Assembly (NCBI RefSeq): GCF_000504285.1
Contig: NZ_KI632511.1
Coordinates: 1,609,372-1,673,371 of the forward strand
DNA: 64,000 nucleotides
Source: Actinospica robiniae DSM 44927
GTDB taxonomy: Bacteria > Actinomycetota > Actinomycetes > Streptomycetales > Catenulisporaceae
Direction of reading: 5' to 3'
In this document: positions 18,548 to 38,565 of the stretch, in pieces
Position numbering within the stretch: position 1 is the first letter of the stretch
How the letters are laid out: every line of letters begins with the position of its first letter
Made by a program: the position numbers and the translations under genes
The notes under the pieces: generated by a model
The model's database searches: none
Seen by the model: the letters and a program-made list of their open reading frames with translations, nothing else
What the model was told of the DNA's origin: nothing

Positions 18548-20452
18548 TCAGTCGAAGATCAGGTCGAACTCTTCGGCCGTGCCGAGCGTGGCCGCGTCCG
18601 CGATCAGCGATGTGGTGCTGTTCGCGGCGTCGACATACTTGCTGTTCGCGTGGGACTTGAGACTGATGCTCCCATCGGTGTTCGCGATCAGGTCGTACTC
18701 CTCCCACGGGCCGATCGCCGTGCGGTTCGCGATCAGGGCGGATGCGCCCGCGTTGTCGGCGGTGACGTAGTCGCCGTCCGCGTGCGAGCGGAAGCTGACG
18801 CTGCCGTCGCTGTTGTGGATCAGGTCGAACGTCTCCCAGCCCCCGATCGCGGTGCGGTTCGCGATCAGTGCGGCGGCTCCGGCGTTCTCCGCGGTGACGT
18901 AGTCGTTGTCCGCGTGGGCGCGCAGGCTCACCGGCACGGTGTCGTAGACGAGGTCGAACTCCTCCCACGGGCCGATCGCGGTGCGATTGGCGATCAGCGC
19001 CGACGCGCCCGCGTTCTCGGCGGTGACGATCTTCTGGTCGTTGTATGCACGGAAGCTGACGCTGCCGTCGGAGTTATGGATCAGGTAGAAGGTCTCCCAC
19101 GGCCCCGGGGCCCCGCGGTTCGCGATCAGCGGCGAGCTGCCGTTGCTCTCGGCGGTGACCCAGTCGCCGTCGGAGTGGGCTCGCAGATTCAGCGTGCCGT
19201 TCTCGTCGAGGAACATGTCGAAGGTCTCGTTCGTGCCGATCGAGGTGGCGTCCGCGATCAGCGAGGTCGTGCTGTTGGCCGCGTCGACGTACTTGCCGTT
19301 GGCGTGGGCGTGCAGGCTGATCACAGACTCGGTGTTCGGTGCGAACGTGGTGGTGTTGTTCGTGTAGCCGGCGGCAACGATGTTCGCCTGCACGGCGTTC
19401 TCGGTGGCGTCGGTGGGGAACCCGGCGGTGACGGCGCCTTCGAAGAACTCACCCTTGCCCTTCGGGCTGTTGTCCCCGCCGGTGCCCAGCTCGATCGAGG
19501 GCTGCACCTTCATCGGGTTGTAGCCGTTGGGCAGCGCGCCCGAGTACGACTGGGTCAGCCCGCCGGACTGCCCGTTGCCGTACTTCAGCGTGAAATTCGT
19601 GGTGCCGTTGTTCTTCTCCCACGCCGAAACGAAGGAGCCGGTCTCGCTGGGGATGCTCGACGGGTTGGGGCCGGCGTTGCTGAAGTACATGCCGTTCTCG
19701 AGGTCGCCGCCGACCCAGGGGCCGGAGCCGGAGCAGCCGCCGGTCCAGCACGCCGTGCCCCAGTAGATGGCGTTCATGGTCGAGTCGCCGTCGTCCGAGT
19801 CGTTGGTCTCGGCCGAGCCGAAGTCGAAGCAGCACAGTCCACTGGTGAGGTTCGACGAGGTCAGCATGTACATGCCCTCAGGCTGCGAGCCGGTGGGCAC
19901 GTTCTTGACGTTGTTGTTGCGGTAGCCGGTGCCGATGTTGTTGACCAGGACGCCGTAGGCCGGCTGACCGCCGATGGTGACCGGCAGCGCCATCGCGTCC
20001 GCGCCGATGTCGGCGCCGTTGGTGCCAGGCCCGGCGAGGCCGCTCGAGCAGCCGGAGCAGGAAGTGCCGGGCGAGATCGGCAGGTTGTTCACATTGCCGG
20101 TCTGGTCGTAGAGCAGGGTGATCGTGCAGGTCGTGCCGGAGCAGAAGGAGACCTGCGGCGCCGAATTGACGACCCCGCCGGCTGCCTGGAGGCTGATGTT
20201 CAGGGTGCTGTTATCCGAGGCGCGCTGGATCTGGTAGAGCGGACCGTTGTAGGAGGCGAACATTGCGCGGGTGGTGCTATAGGCCGCCTCGCACGGCGTG
20301 CCGCCGGACGCGTAGATGTCGCAGGGCAGGGCGGAAGCGGCGGCAGCGGCCCGCGGCGCGGCCGTACCGGATAACGGCACTGCGATCGCCAAGGCCAGCA
20401 GCAGTGCGAACAACAGCCGCGCGCGCCGTCGGACTGGGTTCAGGACATGCAC
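18548..20452 (-). CDS. Secreted GH54 alpha-L-arabinofuranosidase with six fascin-type repeats
   Basis: The 634-residue preprotein starts at GTG 20452, 6 nt after GGAGG. Residues 1-45 are a Sec signal peptide (RRRARLLFALLLALAIAVPL...). The GH54 catalytic domain (about 46-365) opens PCDIYASGGTPCEAAYSTTRA. E252 in DLENGMYFS and D327 in GGDNSPKG match the nucleophile and acid/base of fungal AbfB. Fungal GH54 enzymes carry a CBM42 at the C-terminus; this one instead has six units of about 43 residues (378-634, motif VTAENAGASALIANRTAIGPWE), i.e. two fascin-like beta-trefoils, likely carbohydrate binding. It would release arabinose from arabinan or arabinoxylan outside the cell. A GTTCCGGAAC site controls its promoter. 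Confidence 0.92.
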   Translation of the reverse strand: MHVLNPVRRRARLLFALLLALAIAVPLSGTAAPRAAAAASALPCDIYASGGTPCEAAYSTTRAMFASYNGPLYQIQRASDNSTLNISLQAAGGVVNSAPQVSFCSGTTCTITLLYDQTGNVNNLPISPGTSCSGCSSGLAGPGTNGADIGADAMALPVTIGGQPAYGVLVNNIGTGYRNNNVKNVPTGSQPEGMYMLTSSNLTSGLCCFDFGSAETNDSDDGDSTMNAIYWGTACWTGGCSGSGPWVGGDLENGMYFSNAGPNPSSIPSETGSFVSAWEKNNGTTNFTLKYGNGQSGGLTQSYSGALPNGYNPMKVQPSIELGTGGDNSPKGKGEFFEGAVTAGFPTDATENAVQANIVAAGYTNNTTTFAPNTESVISLHAHANGKYVDAANSTTSLIADATSIGTNETFDMFLDENGTLNLRAHSDGDWVTAESNGSSPLIANRGAPGPWETFYLIHNSDGSVSFRAYNDQKIVTAENAGASALIANRTAIGPWEEFDLVYDTVPVSLRAHADNDYVTAENAGAAALIANRTAIGGWETFDLIHNSDGSVSFRSHADGDYVTADNAGASALIANRTAIGPWEEYDLIANTDGSISLKSHANSKYVDAANSTTSLIADAATLGTAEEFDLIFD

Positions 20453-23775: not shown

Positions 23776-25395
23776 TCAGTGCCCTGCGGTTCCGGTGCTC
23801 CACAGGACGGTTCCGGCCGAGTTGTATATGACGGTGTTGCCATCGTTCTGCACGGAGAGGTAGGCGCCGTTGTCGCCGGCGGTGTTGCTGGCCCACAGCG
23901 GGCTGCCGGAGGCGTTGTAGATGACGAAGTTGCCGTCGCCCTGCATGATCGCCTTGGCGCTGGCCTGGCCGGCGGTGCCCGAGGCCCACAGCGCGGTGCT
24001 GCCCTGGTAGAGCACGAGGTTGCCGTCGCCGCCGAGGATCAGTTGGAACCGGCCGTCGCACGAGGTGATGGACTGGTTCACGGTGATCTGCTGGTTGCCG
24101 GTCATCTGGCCGCACCCGGGGGTGGCGCCACCGGTGGAGGAGCCGGGGTTGGGCACGGTGGGCCGGGTGGCGGTGAGCGCGATCTGGCCCTTGAGCATCC
24201 GGCCGCCGTCGTTCGTCAGGCGCATGTAGTAGTCGGCGGAGCAGGCGGTGCCGTCCTCATCCAGGGAGAGCAGGCCGGAGCCGGCGGGCACGGCGGCTTG
24301 GGTGGCGGCGGTGTGCAGGATCTGGTTGCCCTCGCCGTACTCGTCGAACATCGAGATGTAAATACCCTGAGCGCCGACGCGCACCATGTTGTAGAACTGG
24401 CCCCACATGAAGTCGCCGTGCGCGCGCTGGCGGGCGGAGAGGTCCCCGGGCAGAACACACGGCTGGTAGTCGATCCCGTTGCCGTTGCAGGAGGACTGGT
24501 CGCCGACGTTGACGTTGTTGTAGAAGTTGTTCGAATCCGCGACCGTCCCGATCCGCCCGACCATCCACGGCGAGATCATGTTGAAGGCGTTGTACACGCT
24601 GGAGTACCCGGCCCGCGAGTCGCTCACGCCGGTGCGCCAGTACGTGGGGACGCCGCCCATCACGTAGCAGCCCTGGCTCTTGAACCAGTCGATCACGGAC
24701 AGGCAATCGGAGGCGGACCAGGGGTGGTTGGAGTCGTTGAAGCCGAAGCCCCAGATACCGACGACGGGCTTGCCGTTCTGGTGCGCGTAGGCGGATGACG
24801 ACGTGTACTGCTTCATGTTGGCCGTCCAGTCGGCCGGCATCTCGGTGGCCATGTTCGTCCACCCGCTCGCGTCGTACATGATGTAGAACTTCCGGCCGTT
24901 GGCCTGCGCGGCGGTGTTCACCCTGGCCGTCACCGCGTTGCGGGTCGGTCCTTCGGAGCCGTTCGGGTCGAACCGCTGCAGCGCCGCGGTGTCACACCCG
25001 TTCGCCGCCATCAGCGCGAAATGCTCGTTGACCGTGGACTGGTCGTAGGAGGAGAACAGCGTGGCCTGGGATCCGTTGCCGAGATTCGCGTACCCGGTCT
25101 CATAACCCTTGCTGTAGACCGTCATGTCCGGCCAGGCTTTGATGTTGTTGTTGCTCGGGGACGGAGCCTGCCCCCAGTTGTCGCTCCAGTGCCACCAGCC
25201 GTTGATCGGCGCCCCGTCGCCGATGCACGCGAACCAGCCCTGATAGCCGACGGTGATCTTGCCGACCACGTCGCCGGCGGGCGAGGCGGCGCTGGCCGGG
25301 CTGGTCAGGGCGGAGATGAGCTCGGTTGCGCCCACGGCCGCGACCGTGGTGCCGGCGAGCGCGGTGGACAGAAGCCTGCGTCGAGAGATCGTCAT
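23776..25395 (-). CDS. Secreted GH71/99-like glycoside hydrolase with bulb-type lectin
   Basis: The 539-residue protein has a twin-arginine signal, MTISRRRLLSTALAGTTVAA. The catalytic domain (about 38-400) has the GH71/GH99-like pattern: VGKITVGYQGWFACIGDG, CDTAALQRFDPNGSEGPTRN, KFYIMYDASGWTNM, VVGIWGFGFNDSNHPW, YVMGGVPTYWRTG and QGIYISMFDEYGEGNQI. Related families cut alpha-1,3-glucan or alpha-mannan; the substrate here is not determined. The C-terminus (about 435-539) is a B-type mannose-binding lectin with LGGDGNLVLY and GDGNFVIY. It is the first gene of a two-gene operon with the SGNH hydrolase. The paralogue at 31998-34184 shares the catalytic domain but has CBM6 modules. Confidence 0.82.
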   Translation of the reverse strand: MTISRRRLLSTALAGTTVAAVGATELISALTSPASAASPAGDVVGKITVGYQGWFACIGDGAPINGWWHWSDNWGQAPSPSNNNIKAWPDMTVYSKGYETGYANLGNGSQATLFSSYDQSTVNEHFALMAANGCDTAALQRFDPNGSEGPTRNAVTARVNTAAQANGRKFYIMYDASGWTNMATEMPADWTANMKQYTSSSAYAHQNGKPVVGIWGFGFNDSNHPWSASDCLSVIDWFKSQGCYVMGGVPTYWRTGVSDSRAGYSSVYNAFNMISPWMVGRIGTVADSNNFYNNVNVGDQSSCNGNGIDYQPCVLPGDLSARQRAHGDFMWGQFYNMVRVGAQGIYISMFDEYGEGNQILHTAATQAAVPAGSGLLSLDEDGTACSADYYMRLTNDGGRMLKGQIALTATRPTVPNPGSSTGGATPGCGQMTGNQQITVNQSITSCDGRFQLILGGDGNLVLYQGSTALWASGTAGQASAKAIMQGDGNFVIYNASGSPLWASNTAGDNGAYLSVQNDGNTVIYNSAGTVLWSTGTAGH

Positions 25396-25703: not shown

Positions 25704-27164
25704 TCAGGCCACGTGCCACTGCTGGTTCGAAGTGTCTCCGCACGACCAGATCTGCACCTGGGTGCCCGAGCCGCCGTAGCCGGTGTCGTCGAGGCACTTG
25801 CCCGAGTTCGGGTTGATGAGCTCGCCGTTGGACTGCGCCTGCCACTGCTGCGCGCCGGTGCCGTTGCAGGTGTAGAGCTGCACCTTCGTGCCGTTGGCGG
25901 TCCCCGCTGCGGACACGTCCAGGCACTTGCCGAGCGCCTGGAGCGTGCCGTTCGAGGCCACCGTCCACTGCTGCGCGTTGGTGCCGTTACAGGTGTAGAC
26001 CTGCACGGGCGTGCCGTCAGCGCTGCTCGCGCTACGCACGTCCAGGCACAGCCCCTGATACCCGGTGACCGGTCCGGTCGCGCCGGAGCCGCCGGTGCTG
26101 CCGCCACCGCCACCGGTGCTGCCGCCGCCACCTCCGCTGCCCAGGAAGCCCTTGGTGAACGCGCCGGTGCTCTGCGAAACTCCGCTGCAGGTGGAGGACG
26201 CGGCCCCGCCGGTGCCGCCGGGGCAGGCCTGGTCGCGGTCGACCGACCAGAAGGCGAGTCGCCCGATTCCGTTGCTTTCGGCCCAACTCGCGACCGTGGA
26301 GGCGTCGGAGAGGGTGAAGGTGGAGGCGTCGGAGAGGGTGAAGGTGGAGCCGTCGTCGTTGACGCCGATCATCGGCGTGATGCCGACGTTCGCGTACGAG
26401 TAGGCGGAGTTCACCGCCTTCATCTGGCTGAGCGTGGCCTGCGCCGCGCTGATGGCGGCCTGGCCCATCTCGATGTTGCCCTGGTAGTAGTCCATCGTCA
26501 TGACGTTGACGACGGGGATGGTCACACCCATGTTCTTGGCGTCCTGGAGCAGCGCGGTGCCGTAGTTGTCCAGGCCGCTGGGCAGGACGGGCACGGTGAC
26601 CGACCAGACCAGGCCGGGGTTCGAGGCCTTGAGGTCCTTCATGGCCTGGAAGGTCTGGTCGATGCCGGTGGTGTTGGCGATCGCGGCGCCTTCGATGTCG
26701 AAGTCGAGGTACTGGGTGCCGTAGTCGTTGATGATCGCCTGGTAGCCGGCGTCGATCGTGCTCTGATTGGTGCAGGTGAACGACAGCGGCAGGCCCGCCG
26801 CGCCGCCGGAGGAGACGATGACCTGCGCGCCGGCCGCCTTGGCCGAGGAGATCTCGCCGCCGATGGTCGGGTCCGACCCGATCGGCAGGGTGTCGCCCCA
26901 GATGTCGCTGCAGCCCTCGCCGATGGCGAAGGCCGCGGTGTAGGCGTGCAGGCCGTCCGCGGAGATGACGGAGTTGAGCACGCTCTCCTGCGAGTTGGAC
27001 ATGTCGACGTAGGGCGCGACGTACATCGAACTGGCGGCCTGAGCCGGGCCGGCCAGGGCGACGATGCCTCCGGCCGCCAGTGCGAGCGTGCCGGCGGCGA
27101 TCACCGCCGCGCCTCCGTACCGCGCCGCGCGCGGGCCGAGACCTCCGAGGTTGTCAGGTTTCAT
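25704..27164 (-). CDS. Secreted GH18 chitinase with C-terminal ricin-type (CBM13) lectin
   Basis: The 486-residue preprotein has a Sec signal (to about residue 43), a GH18 barrel (about 45-330) and, after a Gly/Ser linker, a ricin-B lectin (about 365-486). The catalytic DxDxE reads LDFDIEG with E158 as acid; VIVSSGGAAG is the preceding GH18 strand and MTMDYYQ the later one. The lectin resembles that of the GH19 chitinase closely (GYQGLCLD, CNGTNAQQWTV). It cuts chitin with retention. A perfect in-frame duplication of 24 bp gives the octapeptide STFTLSDA twice. The promoter carries both a DasR-like site and the GTTCCGGAAC operator. Start ATG 27164. Confidence 0.92.
   Translation of the reverse strand: MKPDNLGGLGPRAARYGGAAVIAAGTLALAAGGIVALAGPAQAASSMYVAPYVDMSNSQESVLNSVISADGLHAYTAAFAIGEGCSDIWGDTLPIGSDPTIGGEISSAKAAGAQVIVSSGGAAGLPLSFTCTNQSTIDAGYQAIINDYGTQYLDFDIEGAAIANTTGIDQTFQAMKDLKASNPGLVWSVTVPVLPSGLDNYGTALLQDAKNMGVTIPVVNVMTMDYYQGNIEMGQAAISAAQATLSQMKAVNSAYSYANVGITPMIGVNDDGSTFTLSDASTFTLSDASTVASWAESNGIGRLAFWSVDRDQACPGGTGGAASSTCSGVSQSTGAFTKGFLGSGGGGGSTGGGGGSTGGSGATGPVTGYQGLCLDVRSASSADGTPVQVYTCNGTNAQQWTVASNGTLQALGKCLDVSAAGTANGTKVQLYTCNGTGAQQWQAQSNGELINPNSGKCLDDTGYGGSGTQVQIWSCGDTSNQQWHVA
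26296..26343. repeat. 24-bp perfect tandem duplication in GH18
   Basis: Two identical 24-bp units (26296-26319 and 26320-26343) add eight residues in frame between the barrel strands near residue 275. It looks like a recent slippage or duplication event that spares the reading frame. Confidence 0.9.
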
Positions 27165-31997: not shown

Positions 31998-34184
31998 CTA
32001 AGAGAACGTCATGGAGTTGAGGTTCCAGCCGCCGTTGTCCTGGTTGAGGGTGAGGGTCTGGCGACCGGCGGGGAGCGTGACGCTCGCGGTAACCGTCGTC
32101 CAGGTCTGCCATCCTCCGGTCGCGGCAAGGTTCACGTTGCCGCTCAGGTTGGTTCCCGAGGCGTTGGACAGGTGGAACGCGTCGGTGACCGAGGAGGGTG
32201 CCGCGACGCGGAAGCTGACGGTGTGCGTGCCGGCGGTGGCTACGTTGACGGTGTACTTGAACCACTGCCCCGTCGCAGTCCAGCCCAGGTCATAGCCGCC
32301 ACCGGTGTCTGAGGTCGTCTCCAGGTCCACACCATCGGCGCGGTAGCTGTTGCCTGAGCCGTTGACCGAGGTGACGTTGTACCCCACGCCCTGCCCGCCG
32401 GTGTCGTAGTTCTCCGCCTGCACCGTGCCGGGGATCGCCGCCGGGCTGCCGCCGTACGGACTCTGCGTAGACGCGAACGTGGCGTAGTTGAGGTTCCAGC
32501 CGCCGTTGTCCTGGTTGAGGGTGAGGGTCTGGCGACCGGCGGGGAGCGTGACGCTCGCGGTAACCGTCGTCCAGGTCTGCCATCCTCCGGTCGCGGCAAG
32601 GTTCACGTTGCCGCTCAGGTTGGTTCCCGAGGCGTTGGACAGGTGGAACGCGTCGGTGACCGAGGAGGGTGCCGCGACGCGGAAGCTGACGGTGTGCGTG
32701 CCGGCGGTGGCTACGTTGACGGTGTACTTGAACCACTGCCCCGTCGCAGTCCAGCCCAGGTCATAGCCGCCACCGGTGTCTGAGGTCGTCTCCAGGTCCA
32801 CACCGTCGGCACGGTAGCCGTTGCCGGAGCCATTGACCGAGGAGACGTTGTAAGCCACGCCCGACCCACCGGTGTCGTAATTCTCCGCATGCACAGTGCC
32901 CGGAATCGCGGCCGGGCTGCCGCCGTACGGACCTTCGCCGCTGAGTACGGGCACGGTGGGGCGTACGTTGGTCAAAGCGATCTGGCCTTTGAGCATCCGG
33001 CCGCCGTCGTTGGTCAGCCGCAGGTAGTAGTCGGCCGAGCAGGCGGTGCCGTCCTGGTCCAGGGACTGCAGGCCCGAGTTGGTGGGCACGCCCGCCTGGG
33101 TGGCGGCGGTGTTGAGGATCTGGTTGCCCTCGCCGTACTCGTCGAACATGGAGATGTAGATGCCCTGCGCGCCGACGCGCACCATGTTGTAGAACTGCTC
33201 CCACATGAAGTCGCCGTGGACACGCTGGCTGGCCGAGAGGTCGCCCGGCAAGACACAAGGCTGGTAATCGATGCCGTTGGAGTTGCAGTAGGCCTGATCG
33301 CCGACGTTGACGTTGGTGTAGAAGCTGTCGGAGTCGGCCTTGGTGCCGATGCGTCCCACCATCCACGGCGAGATCATGTTGAACGCCGAGTACACGCTCG
33401 AGTAGCCGGCGCGCGAGTCGCTGACCCCAGTGCGCCAGTACGTCGGCACCCCGCCCATCACGTAGCAGCCCTGACTCTGAAACCACTGGACCACCGACAG
33501 GCAGTCGGCGGCCGACCAGGGGTGGTTGGTGTCGTTGAACCCGAAGCCCCAGATCCCGACGACCGGCTTGCCGTTCTGGTGCGCGTAGGCCGAGGACGAG
33601 GCGTACTGGGACATCACGTTGGTCCAGTCCGCGGGCGTCTCGGTCTTCATGTTCGTCCAGCCCGAGGCGTCGTACATGATGTAGAACTTCCGGCCGTAGG
33701 TCTGGGCGGCGGTGTTGACCATCCTGGTGACCTCGTTGCGGCTGGGGCCCTCCGAGCCGTTCGGGTCGAAGCGCTGCAGGGCCGCGGTGTCGCAGCCGTT
33801 CTGCTGCATCAGGCTGAAGTGGGCGTTGACGACCTGCTGGTCGACCGAGGAGAACAGGGTGGCCGGCTGGCCGTTGCCGAGGTTGGCGTAGCCGGTCTGG
33901 TAGCCCTTGCTGTAGATGGTCATGTCGGGCCACGCCTTGATGTTGTTGTTGCTCGGCGACGGCGCCTGCGCCTGGTTCTGGCTCCAGTGCCACCACGCGT
34001 TGATCGGCGCCCCGTCGCCGATGCACGCGAACCAGCCCTGGTAACCGACGGTGATCTTGCCGACGACGTCGCCGACACCGCTCGCGGCGCTGGCCGCCGG
34101 CGCTTCGGCGAGCTGCGCGACGGCCGCCCCGGCCAACGGGATCCCGGCCGCCGAGACAAGCAGCTTCCTGCGGGTGATACCCAT
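31998..34184 (-). CDS. Secreted GH71/99-like glycoside hydrolase with two CBM6 modules
   Basis: The 728-residue protein has a twin-arginine signal (MGITRRKLLVSAAGIPLAGAA). The catalytic domain (about 34-411) is a close paralogue of that at 23776-25395, with the same blocks (VGYQGWFACIGDG, CDTAALQRFDPNGSEG, FDEYGEGNQIL). Two CBM6-type modules follow (about 416-568 and 571-728), each starting YGGSPAAIPGT and containing AENYDTGG, GGGYDLGWTATGQWFKYTV and TLTLNQDNGGWNLN. A 319-bp block of the two modules is identical at DNA level. It starts 24 bp after the GH95 stop and is the second gene of that operon. The substrate is not known; CBM6 suggests beta-glucan or xylan binding. Confidence 0.83.
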   Translation of the reverse strand: MGITRRKLLVSAAGIPLAGAAVAQLAEAPAASAASGVGDVVGKITVGYQGWFACIGDGAPINAWWHWSQNQAQAPSPSNNNIKAWPDMTIYSKGYQTGYANLGNGQPATLFSSVDQQVVNAHFSLMQQNGCDTAALQRFDPNGSEGPSRNEVTRMVNTAAQTYGRKFYIMYDASGWTNMKTETPADWTNVMSQYASSSAYAHQNGKPVVGIWGFGFNDTNHPWSAADCLSVVQWFQSQGCYVMGGVPTYWRTGVSDSRAGYSSVYSAFNMISPWMVGRIGTKADSDSFYTNVNVGDQAYCNSNGIDYQPCVLPGDLSASQRVHGDFMWEQFYNMVRVGAQGIYISMFDEYGEGNQILNTAATQAGVPTNSGLQSLDQDGTACSADYYLRLTNDGGRMLKGQIALTNVRPTVPVLSGEGPYGGSPAAIPGTVHAENYDTGGSGVAYNVSSVNGSGNGYRADGVDLETTSDTGGGYDLGWTATGQWFKYTVNVATAGTHTVSFRVAAPSSVTDAFHLSNASGTNLSGNVNLAATGGWQTWTTVTASVTLPAGRQTLTLNQDNGGWNLNYATFASTQSPYGGSPAAIPGTVQAENYDTGGQGVGYNVTSVNGSGNSYRADGVDLETTSDTGGGYDLGWTATGQWFKYTVNVATAGTHTVSFRVAAPSSVTDAFHLSNASGTNLSGNVNLAATGGWQTWTTVTASVTLPAGRQTLTLNQDNGGWNLNSMTFS
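32015..32804. repeat. Direct repeat of CBM6 DNA, 319 bp identical, 471-bp period
   Basis: Positions 32015-32333 and 32486-32804 are identical base for base by my reading. The 471-bp period equals 157 codons, so a whole module was duplicated or converted in frame. Just outside this block the copies differ (for example CATCGGCG against CGTCGGCA). Confidence 0.9.
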
Positions 34185-34208: not shown

Positions 34209-37200
34209 TTACGAGACCGTCATGAAGTTGATGTTCCAGCCGCCGTTGTCCTCGTTGAGGGTCAGGGTCTGCTGGCCGGCGGGGAGCGTGACGGTGGCGG
34301 TCACCGTCTCCCAGGTCTGCCAGCCTCCGGTGGCGGCGACGTTGACGTTTCCGCTCAGGTTGGTGCCGGAGGCGTTGGACAGGTGGAAGCCGTCGGTGAC
34401 CGCGGACGGCGCCGCCACGCGGAAGCTGATCGTGTGTGTCCCGGCGGTGGCGACGTTGACGGTGTATTTGAACCACTGTCCGGTCGCGGTCCAGCCCAGG
34501 TCGTCACCGCCACCGGTGTCCGAGGTGGTCTCCAGGTCCACCCCGTCGGGCCGGTAGGCGGTGCCGTTTCCGTTGACCGAGGTGACGTTGTACGCCACGC
34601 CCTGCCCGCCGGTGTCGTAGTTCTCCGCCTGGAGCGTGCCGGGGATCGCGGCGGCGGTACCACCGTACGGGCCCTGCGACGATGCGAAGGTGAGGGCATT
34701 GATGTTCCAGCCGCCGTTGTCCTCGTTGAGGGTCAGGGTCTGCTGGCCGGCCGGGAGGGTGAGGTTCGCGGTCACGGTCTCCCAGGTCTGCCATCCTCCG
34801 CTCGAAGCGATGTTCACATTGCCGCTCAGGTTCGTCCCTGCGGAGTTGGACAGGTGGAACGCGTCGGTCACCCCGGACGGCGCCGCGACCCGGAAGCTGA
34901 CTTGATACGTACCGGCGGTCGCGACGTTGACGGCGTACTTGAACCACTGCCCGGTCCCGGTCCAGCCCAGGTCGTCACCACCACCGGTATCCGACGTCGT
35001 CTCCAGATCCACCCCGTCGGCCCGGTACGCGGTGCCGTTGCCGTTGACCGAGGTGACGTTGTACGCCACGCCCTGCCCGCCGGTGTCGTAGTTCTCCGCC
35101 TGCACCGAACCCGGGACCGCAGCCGCGCTACCGCCATACGGAGACTCCGCGCCGGCGCCCGTGGTCGCCATCGCGAAGACGTGGATCGCCGCAGTGCCCG
35201 ACGTCAGCGCTCCGCCGGACGGCAGGGTCACCGAGGCGACCGGCTTGCCCGATGTGAGTGTGATCGGGATCGAGAAGATGTCACCGGTTTGGGCGTAGGT
35301 CGTGTTGTTGGCGCGGTTCTGATAGGCCGACGTGACCGCGACCGCGCCGCCGGATGGCGCCGTGGTGGACCACCAGTCCGGGACGTTGAGCGTGTAACTC
35401 TGGGTGCTGCCGTCGGTGTAGGTGATGGTGCCGCTGCCGGTGGCGGGGCCGTAGCTGGCCGAGACCAGGAACCCGAGCGTGCCCGAGCCGGACATGGTGA
35501 TCTTCTGCCCCTGTGCGACAGTGTTGTCGTTCGTGCTGCCTGCCACGTTCGGCATCGTGAACGCGACGCCGGACGAGGTGACCGTCGCGCCGGGGCCGGC
35601 ACCCGCGTTGGTGAGCGCGGTCTCCGAGAAGCTCGCGCCGCCACCGTCGTAGTTGCCGGGGTTGGTGTTGTTGTCGGCGGTGATGGCGACGTCGTTGAAG
35701 GATGCGGCCAGGTTCGGGTAGCTGCTCGAGACGCTGTTGCCCGGCAGGCCGATCTGCACCTTGCCGCCGAGCGTCCGGTACGTGGTCGCGGCCGTGCCGG
35801 TGACCTGGGCGAAGGCCATCGAGGTGGTCGGGTTCGAGGGCTGCTCGACCAGGTACGAGGTCCCGGCCGTCATCGGGAGGCTGAAGGTGGCCGCGGTGGT
35901 CGGCGAGACGATCACCGCGCCGGACGAGCCGTTGACGACCTGCGCCTGCTGACCCGGCCACGGGTTCTTGACCGTGATCGTGCTGTTGGAGCCGGCCTGG
36001 ATCGCGGCCGTGGCCAGGGTGCCGCTCTCGACCTGGACGTCCACCTTCGTGCCGCCCTGGACGTACACGGTGCCGGACCCGTCCCAGTTGGACGGCCAGG
36101 CCGGCGCGAAGCGCAGCGTGCCGTCGTACTGCGTGGCGAGAGCCTCATCCATCGCGGTGGCGACAGTGGACTGCTGCTCGATGTACGAGTTGGTGCCGAC
36201 GCTGCCGTTGAAGAGGTTGGCCAGACCACTGATGTAGGCCTGGTAGTTCTCGGTCACCGTGGTCAGATCGTTAGCGACCTCGCTGCCCAGGTCGAGCCGG
36301 GCGGCCTGGACCGCGTCGAAGTTCCAGTCGGGATTGGTCTTGTTCGGCCGGTTGGTGTACGTGCGATCCGCCAGGGCGGTGAGGTTGTCGCCGTTGACCA
36401 CGGTGTTGTCGCCGATCTGGCCGTAGGGCCAGACCGTCTCCAAGCCGATGTTCTCGCCGTTGTGGGTGGCCGCGCTCGGCTGGTAGGACATGCCGATCAC
36501 GTCCGCCCCGCCGGAATCCGCGCTCGCGGCCGCCGACGCGGAGGTCGGCTGGCTGTTGAGCAACTGCGTCTGGTTCGACTGGTTGACGCGCGGATACGGC
36601 TCGATCTCGGTCAGCGCGGTGCGCATCTGCGAGACCAGGCTCGCGTCCGTGTTGAGCGCAGTCGCCGCGTTGATCTCGATGTTGAACAGCGCCTGGTCGG
36701 CCACCAGGTCGTCGGTCGGGTCCTGGACGGCCCACTGCGTCTCGTGCGCGTTGGCCACCGCGTGCAGGAACCCGTCGGAGCCGAGGCTCTGGTAGTTGTA
36801 CAGGAAGGTCGCGGTCTGCTGGATGATCGGGTAGTACTTCTGCAGGAAGCTGATGCTGCCGGTGTCCTGATACTGCTGCCATACGTACAACGCCAGTTCC
36901 GCGCCGCTGGTGACATTCTCCGCGTTGTAGTTCGGACTGGCGGCGAGAGCGCAGGAACTGCCGGAGGCGACGGATCCGCCGTTGTAGTAGCCGTTGCCGT
37001 TGAAGCGCATGGTCTCGGGCACACACGCGCCCGGCTTTCCGCCCATCTGCGCGCTGGTCCACGATTCGGTCGTCGGCAGGTCGTTGAGGTACATGTCGAA
37101 GATCGGGGTGTTGAGCGCGAAGTTGCCCGAAGACTCGTTGGCGGTGATCTGGCCGCGCAGGTTCCACATCCAGTAGCCGGCCGGGTACCAGTCCTGCTGG

Positions 37201-38222
37201 TCCTCGTTCCAGTTGAACATGTTCGCCACGCCCGCCTGGCTGCCGGGCAAATTGCCCGCCTTCATGCTGGCGGCCTCGTCATAGAGATAGAGCGTGCGAA
37301 GGTTCTCCAAGTACTGCGCGGTGCCGTCCGAGGAGTTCGCCTCGATCAGACCGCTGTTGGCCCAGAAGCCGTTCCACCACGCGGACTGGGTGGACAACAG
37401 CGAGGCCGCCGTCGACGAGGTGTCGCCGCCGATCAGCGACTGCGCCGTCGTGGTCGCGTTGCCGCCGGTCCACTGGGGCGAAGCGACCACGACCCGGAAC
37501 GAGCCGTCGCTGTTCGGGTTGAAGGTGACCTTAACCTGGGTGCCGTTGACCACCGACGCGCTGACGTTCTGGCCGCCCGCGGTCAGCGCGGCCATCGCGC
37601 CGAAGGTCTGGTTGGAGTAGCCGGCCTGCGAGTTGTCCACCCACGTCTGCGCGAAGCTTGCGATCGCGCCTGACGCGGCGGTCGACGGAGACCGACCGCT
37701 CCACAGGTTGAGCGTCGCGCTCTCCTGCGTGCTCGGGTTCGCACCGGTGACGTTGACGACGAGCTCGTCCTTGCCCGCCGGCACCCACGCCTGCAGCGTC
37801 ATACCGCCGCCGGACTCGTCGAGCACGCCGTTGTAGAGGTCCAGGTAGCCGCTGAAGTTCGAGGCGGAGGTCATCGCGGACAGCCCGGGAATGTTCACCT
37901 GACCGGGAGAGAGCCGGTACGGCATGGTGTCGCTGCGATTCAGCTGCGCGGTGAAGCCGTTGGCGGCCCACGCGGCCACACCGAGCGAGCCGTTGCCCAG
38001 CGGCAGCGACTGGCTGTTCGCCGTGTTCGGGCTGCCGAGCACGATGTCCGAACGGGAGACCACGCCGCCGGTGTTCACCGAGAACGCACCGTTCTGCCAG
38101 GCCGTGGTCAGGCTCGCGGCAGCGGCCGGCTGGGATAACCCGAAGACCACGGTGAAGAGCGAGCCCGTCAGAGTCAGGGCACTTCCGAGTGCTAGTAAGC
38201 GAAATGGGCGTCGAGCATCCAA
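34209..38222 (-). CDS. Secreted GH95-type glycoside hydrolase with two CBM6 modules, 1337 aa
   Basis: TTG 38222 follows GGAGG by 8 nt and opens a signal peptide, MDARRPFRLLALGSALTLTG. The catalytic part (about 41-745) has the GH95 marks LPLGNGSLGVAAWA, LNRSDTMPY, a (alpha/alpha)6 region with DQQDWYPAGYWMWNLRGQ, and ENIGLETVWPYGQIGD. GH95 enzymes are alpha-L-fucosidases or alpha-L-galactosidases. A beta-sandwich segment (about 790-1024) and two CBM6 modules (about 1027-1181 and 1184-1337, with AENYDTGGQGVAYNVTSVNG and TLTLNEDNGGWNIN) follow. These CBM6 modules are homologous to those of the next gene, but less alike at DNA level. It leads a two-gene operon and has a pair of GTTCCGGAAC sites far upstream. 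Confidence 0.85.
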   Translation of the reverse strand: MDARRPFRLLALGSALTLTGSLFTVVFGLSQPAAAASLTTAWQNGAFSVNTGGVVSRSDIVLGSPNTANSQSLPLGNGSLGVAAWAANGFTAQLNRSDTMPYRLSPGQVNIPGLSAMTSASNFSGYLDLYNGVLDESGGGMTLQAWVPAGKDELVVNVTGANPSTQESATLNLWSGRSPSTAASGAIASFAQTWVDNSQAGYSNQTFGAMAALTAGGQNVSASVVNGTQVKVTFNPNSDGSFRVVVASPQWTGGNATTTAQSLIGGDTSSTAASLLSTQSAWWNGFWANSGLIEANSSDGTAQYLENLRTLYLYDEAASMKAGNLPGSQAGVANMFNWNEDQQDWYPAGYWMWNLRGQITANESSGNFALNTPIFDMYLNDLPTTESWTSAQMGGKPGACVPETMRFNGNGYYNGGSVASGSSCALAASPNYNAENVTSGAELALYVWQQYQDTGSISFLQKYYPIIQQTATFLYNYQSLGSDGFLHAVANAHETQWAVQDPTDDLVADQALFNIEINAATALNTDASLVSQMRTALTEIEPYPRVNQSNQTQLLNSQPTSASAAASADSGGADVIGMSYQPSAATHNGENIGLETVWPYGQIGDNTVVNGDNLTALADRTYTNRPNKTNPDWNFDAVQAARLDLGSEVANDLTTVTENYQAYISGLANLFNGSVGTNSYIEQQSTVATAMDEALATQYDGTLRFAPAWPSNWDGSGTVYVQGGTKVDVQVESGTLATAAIQAGSNSTITVKNPWPGQQAQVVNGSSGAVIVSPTTAATFSLPMTAGTSYLVEQPSNPTTSMAFAQVTGTAATTYRTLGGKVQIGLPGNSVSSSYPNLAASFNDVAITADNNTNPGNYDGGGASFSETALTNAGAGPGATVTSSGVAFTMPNVAGSTNDNTVAQGQKITMSGSGTLGFLVSASYGPATGSGTITYTDGSTQSYTLNVPDWWSTTAPSGGAVAVTSAYQNRANNTTYAQTGDIFSIPITLTSGKPVASVTLPSGGALTSGTAAIHVFAMATTGAGAESPYGGSAAAVPGSVQAENYDTGGQGVAYNVTSVNGNGTAYRADGVDLETTSDTGGGDDLGWTGTGQWFKYAVNVATAGTYQVSFRVAAPSGVTDAFHLSNSAGTNLSGNVNIASSGGWQTWETVTANLTLPAGQQTLTLNEDNGGWNINALTFASSQGPYGGTAAAIPGTLQAENYDTGGQGVAYNVTSVNGNGTAYRPDGVDLETTSDTGGGDDLGWTATGQWFKYTVNVATAGTHTISFRVAAPSAVTDGFHLSNASGTNLSGNVNVAATGGWQTWETVTATVTLPAGQQTLTLNEDNGGWNINFMTVS

Positions 38223-38565
38223 GGTAAGGTCCTCCGATACGTGGTGGGCATTTCGGGAGGTTTCAAGCCTTGCTGTCGCTTCCGGAGTGGGCTGCCGGAG
38301 ATCGTTGCAACCGATGCGACTCTTAAACTCAGGGACACGATACATCCGATGTCAAGAAGAGGCGTCAGGTGAAAGAAGGTCCAAATCTCCGCAAAGATCG
38401 AGCGCAGCCCTGCAGACTTACAGCGCAGCGCTGTCATCCAGCGCTGACATGCGAGAAAGCGTCAGGATCGCCGGGCGGCACGGACGCACTTGATCAAGCC
38501 TGTGCCGGATAGTTCCTGCATCGAATGGACAAACATCGGTTCTTTCGGCCCTTCGCGGTCGTCTG

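Follow-up and report, generated by a model that had tools for sequence, protein, structure and literature searches.

A 319-bp identical tract in a tandem CBM6 pair of Actinospica robiniae probably reflects recent gene conversion in an old duplication

Two tandem CBM6 modules share an identical tract

A 728-residue protein encoded by Actinospica robiniae DSM 44927 (gene B; 31998..34184, minus strand) ends in two tandem CBM6 modules that are identical over 319 bp and diverged on both sides of this tract. We consider it probable that the modules form an old tandem pair in which module 2 was recently converted onto module 1. The gene lies in the 64,000-nucleotide stretch of DNA analyzed here (the window), which belongs to an assembly consisting of a single contig of 9,918,887 bases.

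Gene B was delineated from its open reading frame, two stretches matching the Pfam CBM_6 profile and a fold match to GH99. A GH99-like catalytic domain (about residues 32-415; 32940..34091, minus strand, as are all parts of the gene), defined by the confident part of the predicted model, Foldseek and an alignment of 24 sequences, is followed by CBM6 module 1 (B1; 32472..32930), the four-residue linker STQS (32460..32471), delimited by linker comparison, and CBM6 module 2 (B2; 32001..32459). Both modules were placed by profile match and module alignment; each has 153 residues and, with the 4-residue linker, the period is 471 bp. The protein scored 142.9 bits against PF03422 (CBM6; Pfam cut-off 28.9) in two stretches of its C-terminal half, and the related profile CBM_35_2 was also above its cut-off (77.4 vs 23). 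The predicted model is confident for the catalytic part only and poor for the CBM tail, where from residue 411 onward the confidence averaged over 10 residues stays under 75. A consensus promoter scan found no promoter-like sites, and the single terminator-like site in the scan was within shuffle expectation.

Direct comparison confirmed the central observation of a first-pass annotation, which had reported two identical 319-bp copies with a 471-bp period and differing flanks. Positions 32015-32333 in B2 (the presumed donor) and 32486-32804 in B1 (the presumed recipient), both assigned from the repeat scan and from diagnostic sites described below, match for exactly 319 bp at an offset of 471 bp, with mismatches just outside on both sides. 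The copies are in frame as stated (471 = 3 x 157), and both lie inside the open reading frame 31998-34184(-). The CBM6 modules of the neighboring GH95-like gene (gene A) also proved, as had been claimed, homologous yet diverged, with 82.1-86.5% nucleotide identity between A and B modules. Tandem Repeats Finder reported an array at 32015-32932 with period 471, 1.9 copies and 96% matches. With 60-bp words, the only direct repeats in the 64-kb window were the 319-bp pair and one 62-bp pair in gene A (34570-34631 with 35041-35102), the offset of which is likewise 471 bp.

B1 and B2 differ at 23 of 459 bases, with 0 of 319 mismatches inside the tract and 23 of 140 outside it (16%). At this flank rate, the chance of zero mismatches in 319 bases is about 1e-25. 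The matching run takes in 112 of 163 variable sites (23 of them mismatches), a length reached in 0 of 100,000 shuffles, and 102 of the 145 variable third positions fall in one matching run. Under a null with site-specific rates the pair gave p = 0.00005 both for all variable sites and for third positions, a value that is the floor of the 20,000 draws used. An identical run of this length between repeats that are diverged on either side of it is what a gene conversion tract would look like. In the protein, the tract spans module residues 43-148, and the eight residue differences between B1 and B2 are at positions 14, 23, 26, 30, 38, 149, 150 and 153.

Age of the module pair

The first-pass annotation had read the pair as a recent in-frame duplication, and the comparison of orthologues for one or two modules that it proposed gives two. 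The orthologue of gene B in Actinospica durhamensis (89% amino acid identity over 1-728) has two CBM6 modules (D1 and D2) with the same 471-bp period and the linker SSEG, and, like gene B, it adjoins a GH95-like gene. Moreover, near-identity over the whole unit is absent: B1 and B2 mismatch at its two ends and nowhere else. Recent duplication is therefore not well supported, and we dropped it. Where the annotation had left the choice between module doubling and gene conversion, the identity run, its flanks and positional signatures speak for the latter, and the two-module tail of the sister species speaks against recent doubling.

Several of these signatures are shared beyond gene B. The linkers have four residues in B (STQS), D (SSEG) and gene A (SSQG), and further in one pair each of the loci L071 (SSEG), L030 (SNEG) and L031 (GNSG). 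At codon 153 of the three Actinospica pairs, module 1 has A or V and reads into the linker, while module 2 has S followed by the stop. The 140 loci listed plus the window gave 95 distinct full-length modules, in which residues 79-80 are YQ only in A1 and D1 and HT only in A2, B1, B2 and D2; automated parsing read all but 7 of the modules, and a text comparison of the region took in all 95. Because of the shared architecture, linker, 3' end and YQ/HT patch, the B1/B2 pair looks like an old cassette, and the doubling of the CBM6 modules was probably not recent. Divergence between B1 and B2 in their first 126 bp is 13.5%, with a dS of about 0.45 (an estimate from 42 codons only); the dS of the catalytic domain between the two Actinospica species is 0.32. 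Against positional orthology, the modules group by gene in these 5' 126 bp.

The tract itself is, judged by its divergence, far younger than the species split, because zero changes in 319 sites bound its divergence at 0.9% (95% upper bound), which is about 7% of the B2-D2 divergence over the same stretch.

Relationships among the modules

Identical bases out of 459 number 436 for B1-B2 and 427 for D1-D2, compared with 385 for B1-D1 (74 differing sites) and 397 for B2-D2 (62 differing sites). Modules within a species are closer to each other than to their positional counterparts in the sister species, a pattern that would be consistent with concerted evolution. On the whole module, the AU test rejected both a B1+D1 clade (p 1.7e-8) and a B2+D2 clade (p 2.5e-7). 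The module tree was built from 23 modules (22 short-class modules from tandem proteins and E1, with L073 left out); over the whole module it places A with B (82/84). The tree of the 5' 126 bp joins B1 with B2 (88/73) and D1 with D2 (94/85). For this part the clades B2+D2 (p 0.033), A1+B1+D1 (p 0.0005) and A2+B2+D2 (p 0.003) were rejected and B1+D1 was not (p 0.14), and trees of the 5' part alone show no sign of a shared origin of the pair. This grouping by gene would be explained equally well by concerted evolution and by independent doubling; the position-specific residues favor concerted evolution.

The dS between A2 and D2 (0.38) is lower than that between B2 and D2 (0.50), which points to another order of descent among the A, B and D pairs than does the placement of A with B in the whole-module tree. 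Between the species (31998-34184 compared with L038 8001-10199), the dS of the CBM6 tract is about 0.6 and exceeds the 0.32 of the catalytic domain; exchange with other CBM6 genes could have raised it.

Direction and donor of the proposed exchange

At five sites within the tract, A1 and D1 share one base and A2 and D2 another, and B1 agrees with module 2 at every one of them. Outside the tract, at site 456, B1 carries the module-1 base. Because B1 has module-2 bases inside the tract and a module-1 base outside it, these diagnostic sites suggest that conversion likely ran from B2 to B1. A span of 18 bp holds four of the five, three of which alter residues 79-80 from YQ to HT. There is also a counter-signal in the tract, where A and D are divided crosswise at 2 sites and the modules go together by gene at 17.

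No closer donor was found in the same genome among 7 DNA matches, with 40 of 130 preliminary candidates scored. The best other DNA match is the pair of the neighboring gene A, at 84%, and a donor elsewhere in the genome was rejected for the candidates scored.

Proposed explanation and its rivals

We propose that an old tandem pair of CBM6 modules formed the tail of the GH99-like enzyme in Actinospica, and that homologous recombination within the gene recently replaced part of B1 with the corresponding sequence of B2, over a length of at least 319 bp. Such an exchange would have left the module copy number unchanged, i.e. it would be gene conversion. The simplest molecular route would be a non-reciprocal homologous exchange, as opposed to a transient third module that was then lost. 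Most of the CBM6 core is identical in both copies, because the tract corresponds to residues 43-148 and the matches of B2 to most of the solved CBM6 chains listed start at residues 38-50 (at 13 for CtGH5-CBM6 enzymes). The effect would be two like-binding sites; both modules may recognize one and the same ligand, and their pairing may raise avidity.

The main rival is independent doubling in each lineage. The tail would have been single when the Actinospica species split and would have doubled separately afterwards and in gene A, so that the tract is the unmutated remnant of a recent duplication. Clustering of the modules by gene, over their full length as well as in the 5' part by itself, fits this scenario, as does the rejection of the A1+B1+D1 and A2+B2+D2 clades in the 5' part. 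We regard it as decidedly unlikely, since linker length and period are common to B, D, A and three further pairs, the position-specific YQ/HT patch and codon 153 are common to A, B and D, and mismatches between B1 and B2 are confined to the two ends of the unit (16% there), a distribution for which a fresh duplication would need a second event. Unequal crossing-over, in which a transient three-module allele collapsed to two modules and left a hybrid module with an identical tract, is an unlikely alternative route. Copy number does change among these proteins, a three-module relative being located beside a two-module neighbor in A. durhamensis (L071), but both known gene B orthologues have exactly two modules. 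This route also needs two events and conversion one, although sequence alone hardly separates them.

It is very improbable that the tract is an assembly or consensus artefact, with one copy overwritten via mis-mapped reads or a wrong join. Short-read polishing could fail at a 319-bp repeat with a 471-bp period; on the other hand, the genome is a single contig, the reading frame is intact, the independent A. durhamensis assembly also shows two copies and conversion-type runs were found in other genomes too. The conservation of CBM6 core residues between species raises the further question of whether strong selection on sequence or codons could keep the modules alike without recombination. This was effectively ruled out by the third positions of the tract, 106 of 106 of which agree between B1 and B2 though 62 of them vary among five other modules compared; over the same 319 sites there are 49 differences between B1 and D1 and 44 between B2 and D2. 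Conversion of an old pair is the reading that we retain.

Possible recurrence in other tandem CBM6 pairs

The loci listed are a sample of the matches and no census; they contain 24 adjacent CBM6 pairs including two duplicates (L073 is the same as L032, and L037 as L027), leaving 22 distinct pairs, to which we applied a multiple-test threshold of 0.05/22. Cut copies of window genes (L002 and L008) and L042, in which the modules are far apart, are not part of this set. At third positions, six of the 22 pairs pass with equal as well as site-specific rates, namely the B pair, L030, L031, L032 (and its duplicate L073), L075 and L076. Six pairs also pass with all variable sites and site-specific rates, L071 modules 2-3 (p 0.00175) replacing L031 (p 0.019), so that five of 22 pass on both site sets. 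Neither D1-D2 (third positions 0.14; all sites 0.0038) nor A1-A2 (0.085 and 0.0051) has a tract under 0.05/22.

These results suggest that conversion between tandem CBM6 modules is recurrent. The tracts of L030, L031, L032 and L076 all fall in one 5' region of the module, and those of related pairs may go back to a single event. Homogenization is not universal, because L033 and L032 (the latter the same as a Catenulispora rubra locus) cluster according to position and not to gene. It is a tentative and rather doubtful extension that recurrent conversion represents a general mode in Actinobacteria, by which the two binding cores would stay matched to one ligand as the pair drifts together and bivalent binding would evolve as a unit.

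A protein of the acidobacterium Silvibacterium bohemicum (L072, open reading frame from 7782) has three CBM6 modules of this type. Of the other modules compared, those of Actinospica match them best, with 70-72% nucleotide identity, and transfer between phyla is possible.

Relation to known systems

Gene B resembles cases of bacterial intragenic gene conversion and concerted evolution in that its in-frame repeats are closer within the gene than between species and an identical tract is flanked by diverged sequence. It differs from those cases in what is repeated, here the globular CBM6 modules within a glycoside hydrolase. Our searches of the open-access literature listed no paper that links CBM modules to gene conversion, to concerted evolution or to the duplication of modules. 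A paper on assembly-line synthetases, which have repeated modules in long genes, names homogenization by gene conversion and concerted evolution (PMC9205934); the modules concerned there are biosynthetic, whereas those of gene B bind carbohydrates. The process is already known, and the gene B tract is a clear new instance of it.

Tandem CBMs that are alike are easily mistaken for recent copies. In gene B the duplication looks old, and recombination appears to have reset the sequence; similarity within a gene would therefore be an unreliable clock for duplications of CBMs. Should the phenomenon be general, it becomes testable whether matched bivalent binding is selected or whether recombination alone keeps the modules alike. 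If it is not, gene B shows concerted evolution in a clear but ordinary form.

Among solved structures, module B2 matches the CBM6 modules of the CtGH5-CBM6 arabinoxylanase (2y8k, E 5.6e-29) and Cellulase B (1uxz, E 7.9e-20), which have catalytic partners other than that of gene B.

Catalytic domain and neighboring genes

Neither Pfam (E up to 0.001) nor NCBIfam (E up to 0.01) gave a catalytic match for residues 1-415 of gene B. Foldseek with the confident part of the model pointed to the GH99 fold, with target-normalized TM of 0.68-0.80 and 14-16% identity to the GH99 chains among the 50 matches listed; the top match by E-value was 4qaw, a CBM-bearing xylanase with a poor TM of 0.32. The predicted catalytic fold is the same as that of GH99 endo-alpha-mannosidases and mannanases (e.g. 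4ad1 and 5m3w). Two glutamates, E349 and E352, are invariant in the alignment of 24 sequences; PDB titles of GH99 structures name mutated E333/E336, which have the same spacing as the gene B pair. Because no curated family profile matches the predicted catalytic domain, we label it GH99-like only.

The catalytic alignment and model used 22 of 24 references plus the window and L038 proteins, drawn from 60 distinct open reading frames with a catalytic match. Among these 60, in the loci listed, our CBM6 profile matched only gene B (present as a full and a cut copy), the orthologue in A. durhamensis and L042, a Bacteroidetes MAG protein with CBM6 modules far apart. The tail is the variable part of proteins with this catalytic domain. 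A search of plasmids found only the catalytic part, on two Streptomyces plasmids.

Gene A (34209..38345, minus strand) encodes a GH95-like enzyme with two CBM6 modules, as identified from its open reading frame, Pfam and similarity to the neighbor gene in A. durhamensis. Modules A1 (34683..35141) and A2 (34212..34670), both on the minus strand, were placed by profile match and module alignment. The protein scores 20.9 against Glyco_hydro_95_C, under the cut-off of 27.6. Its A. durhamensis counterpart (72% amino acid identity over 863 aligned columns) scores 31.6 against Glyco_hydro_95_cat, with a cut-off of 27. The tails of these orthologues differ, gene A having two CBM6 modules and the A. 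durhamensis gene (L038 4138-7572) a single CBM6 and, after it, a lectin domain of the ricin type.

Other copies of the GH99-like catalytic domain are present in the same genome. A paralogue at 23776-25395 has a lectin-like tail, which scores 28.1 against B_lectin (cut-off 32.4) and is far under the cut-off of a lectin-like bacteriocin profile. Another copy is located at G000:C1:80865-82142. A fragment at G000:C1:9699843-9700355 shares 78% amino acid identity over residues 254-424, contains one in-frame TAG and is probably a decayed copy. Two further repeats in the window were observed elsewhere. Within the gene 25704-27164(-), a 24-bp unit at 26296-26355 is repeated in 2.5 copies with 97% match, giving an in-frame doubled FTLSDAST peptide, and positions 18663-19186 contain diverged tandem repeats of about 132 bp.
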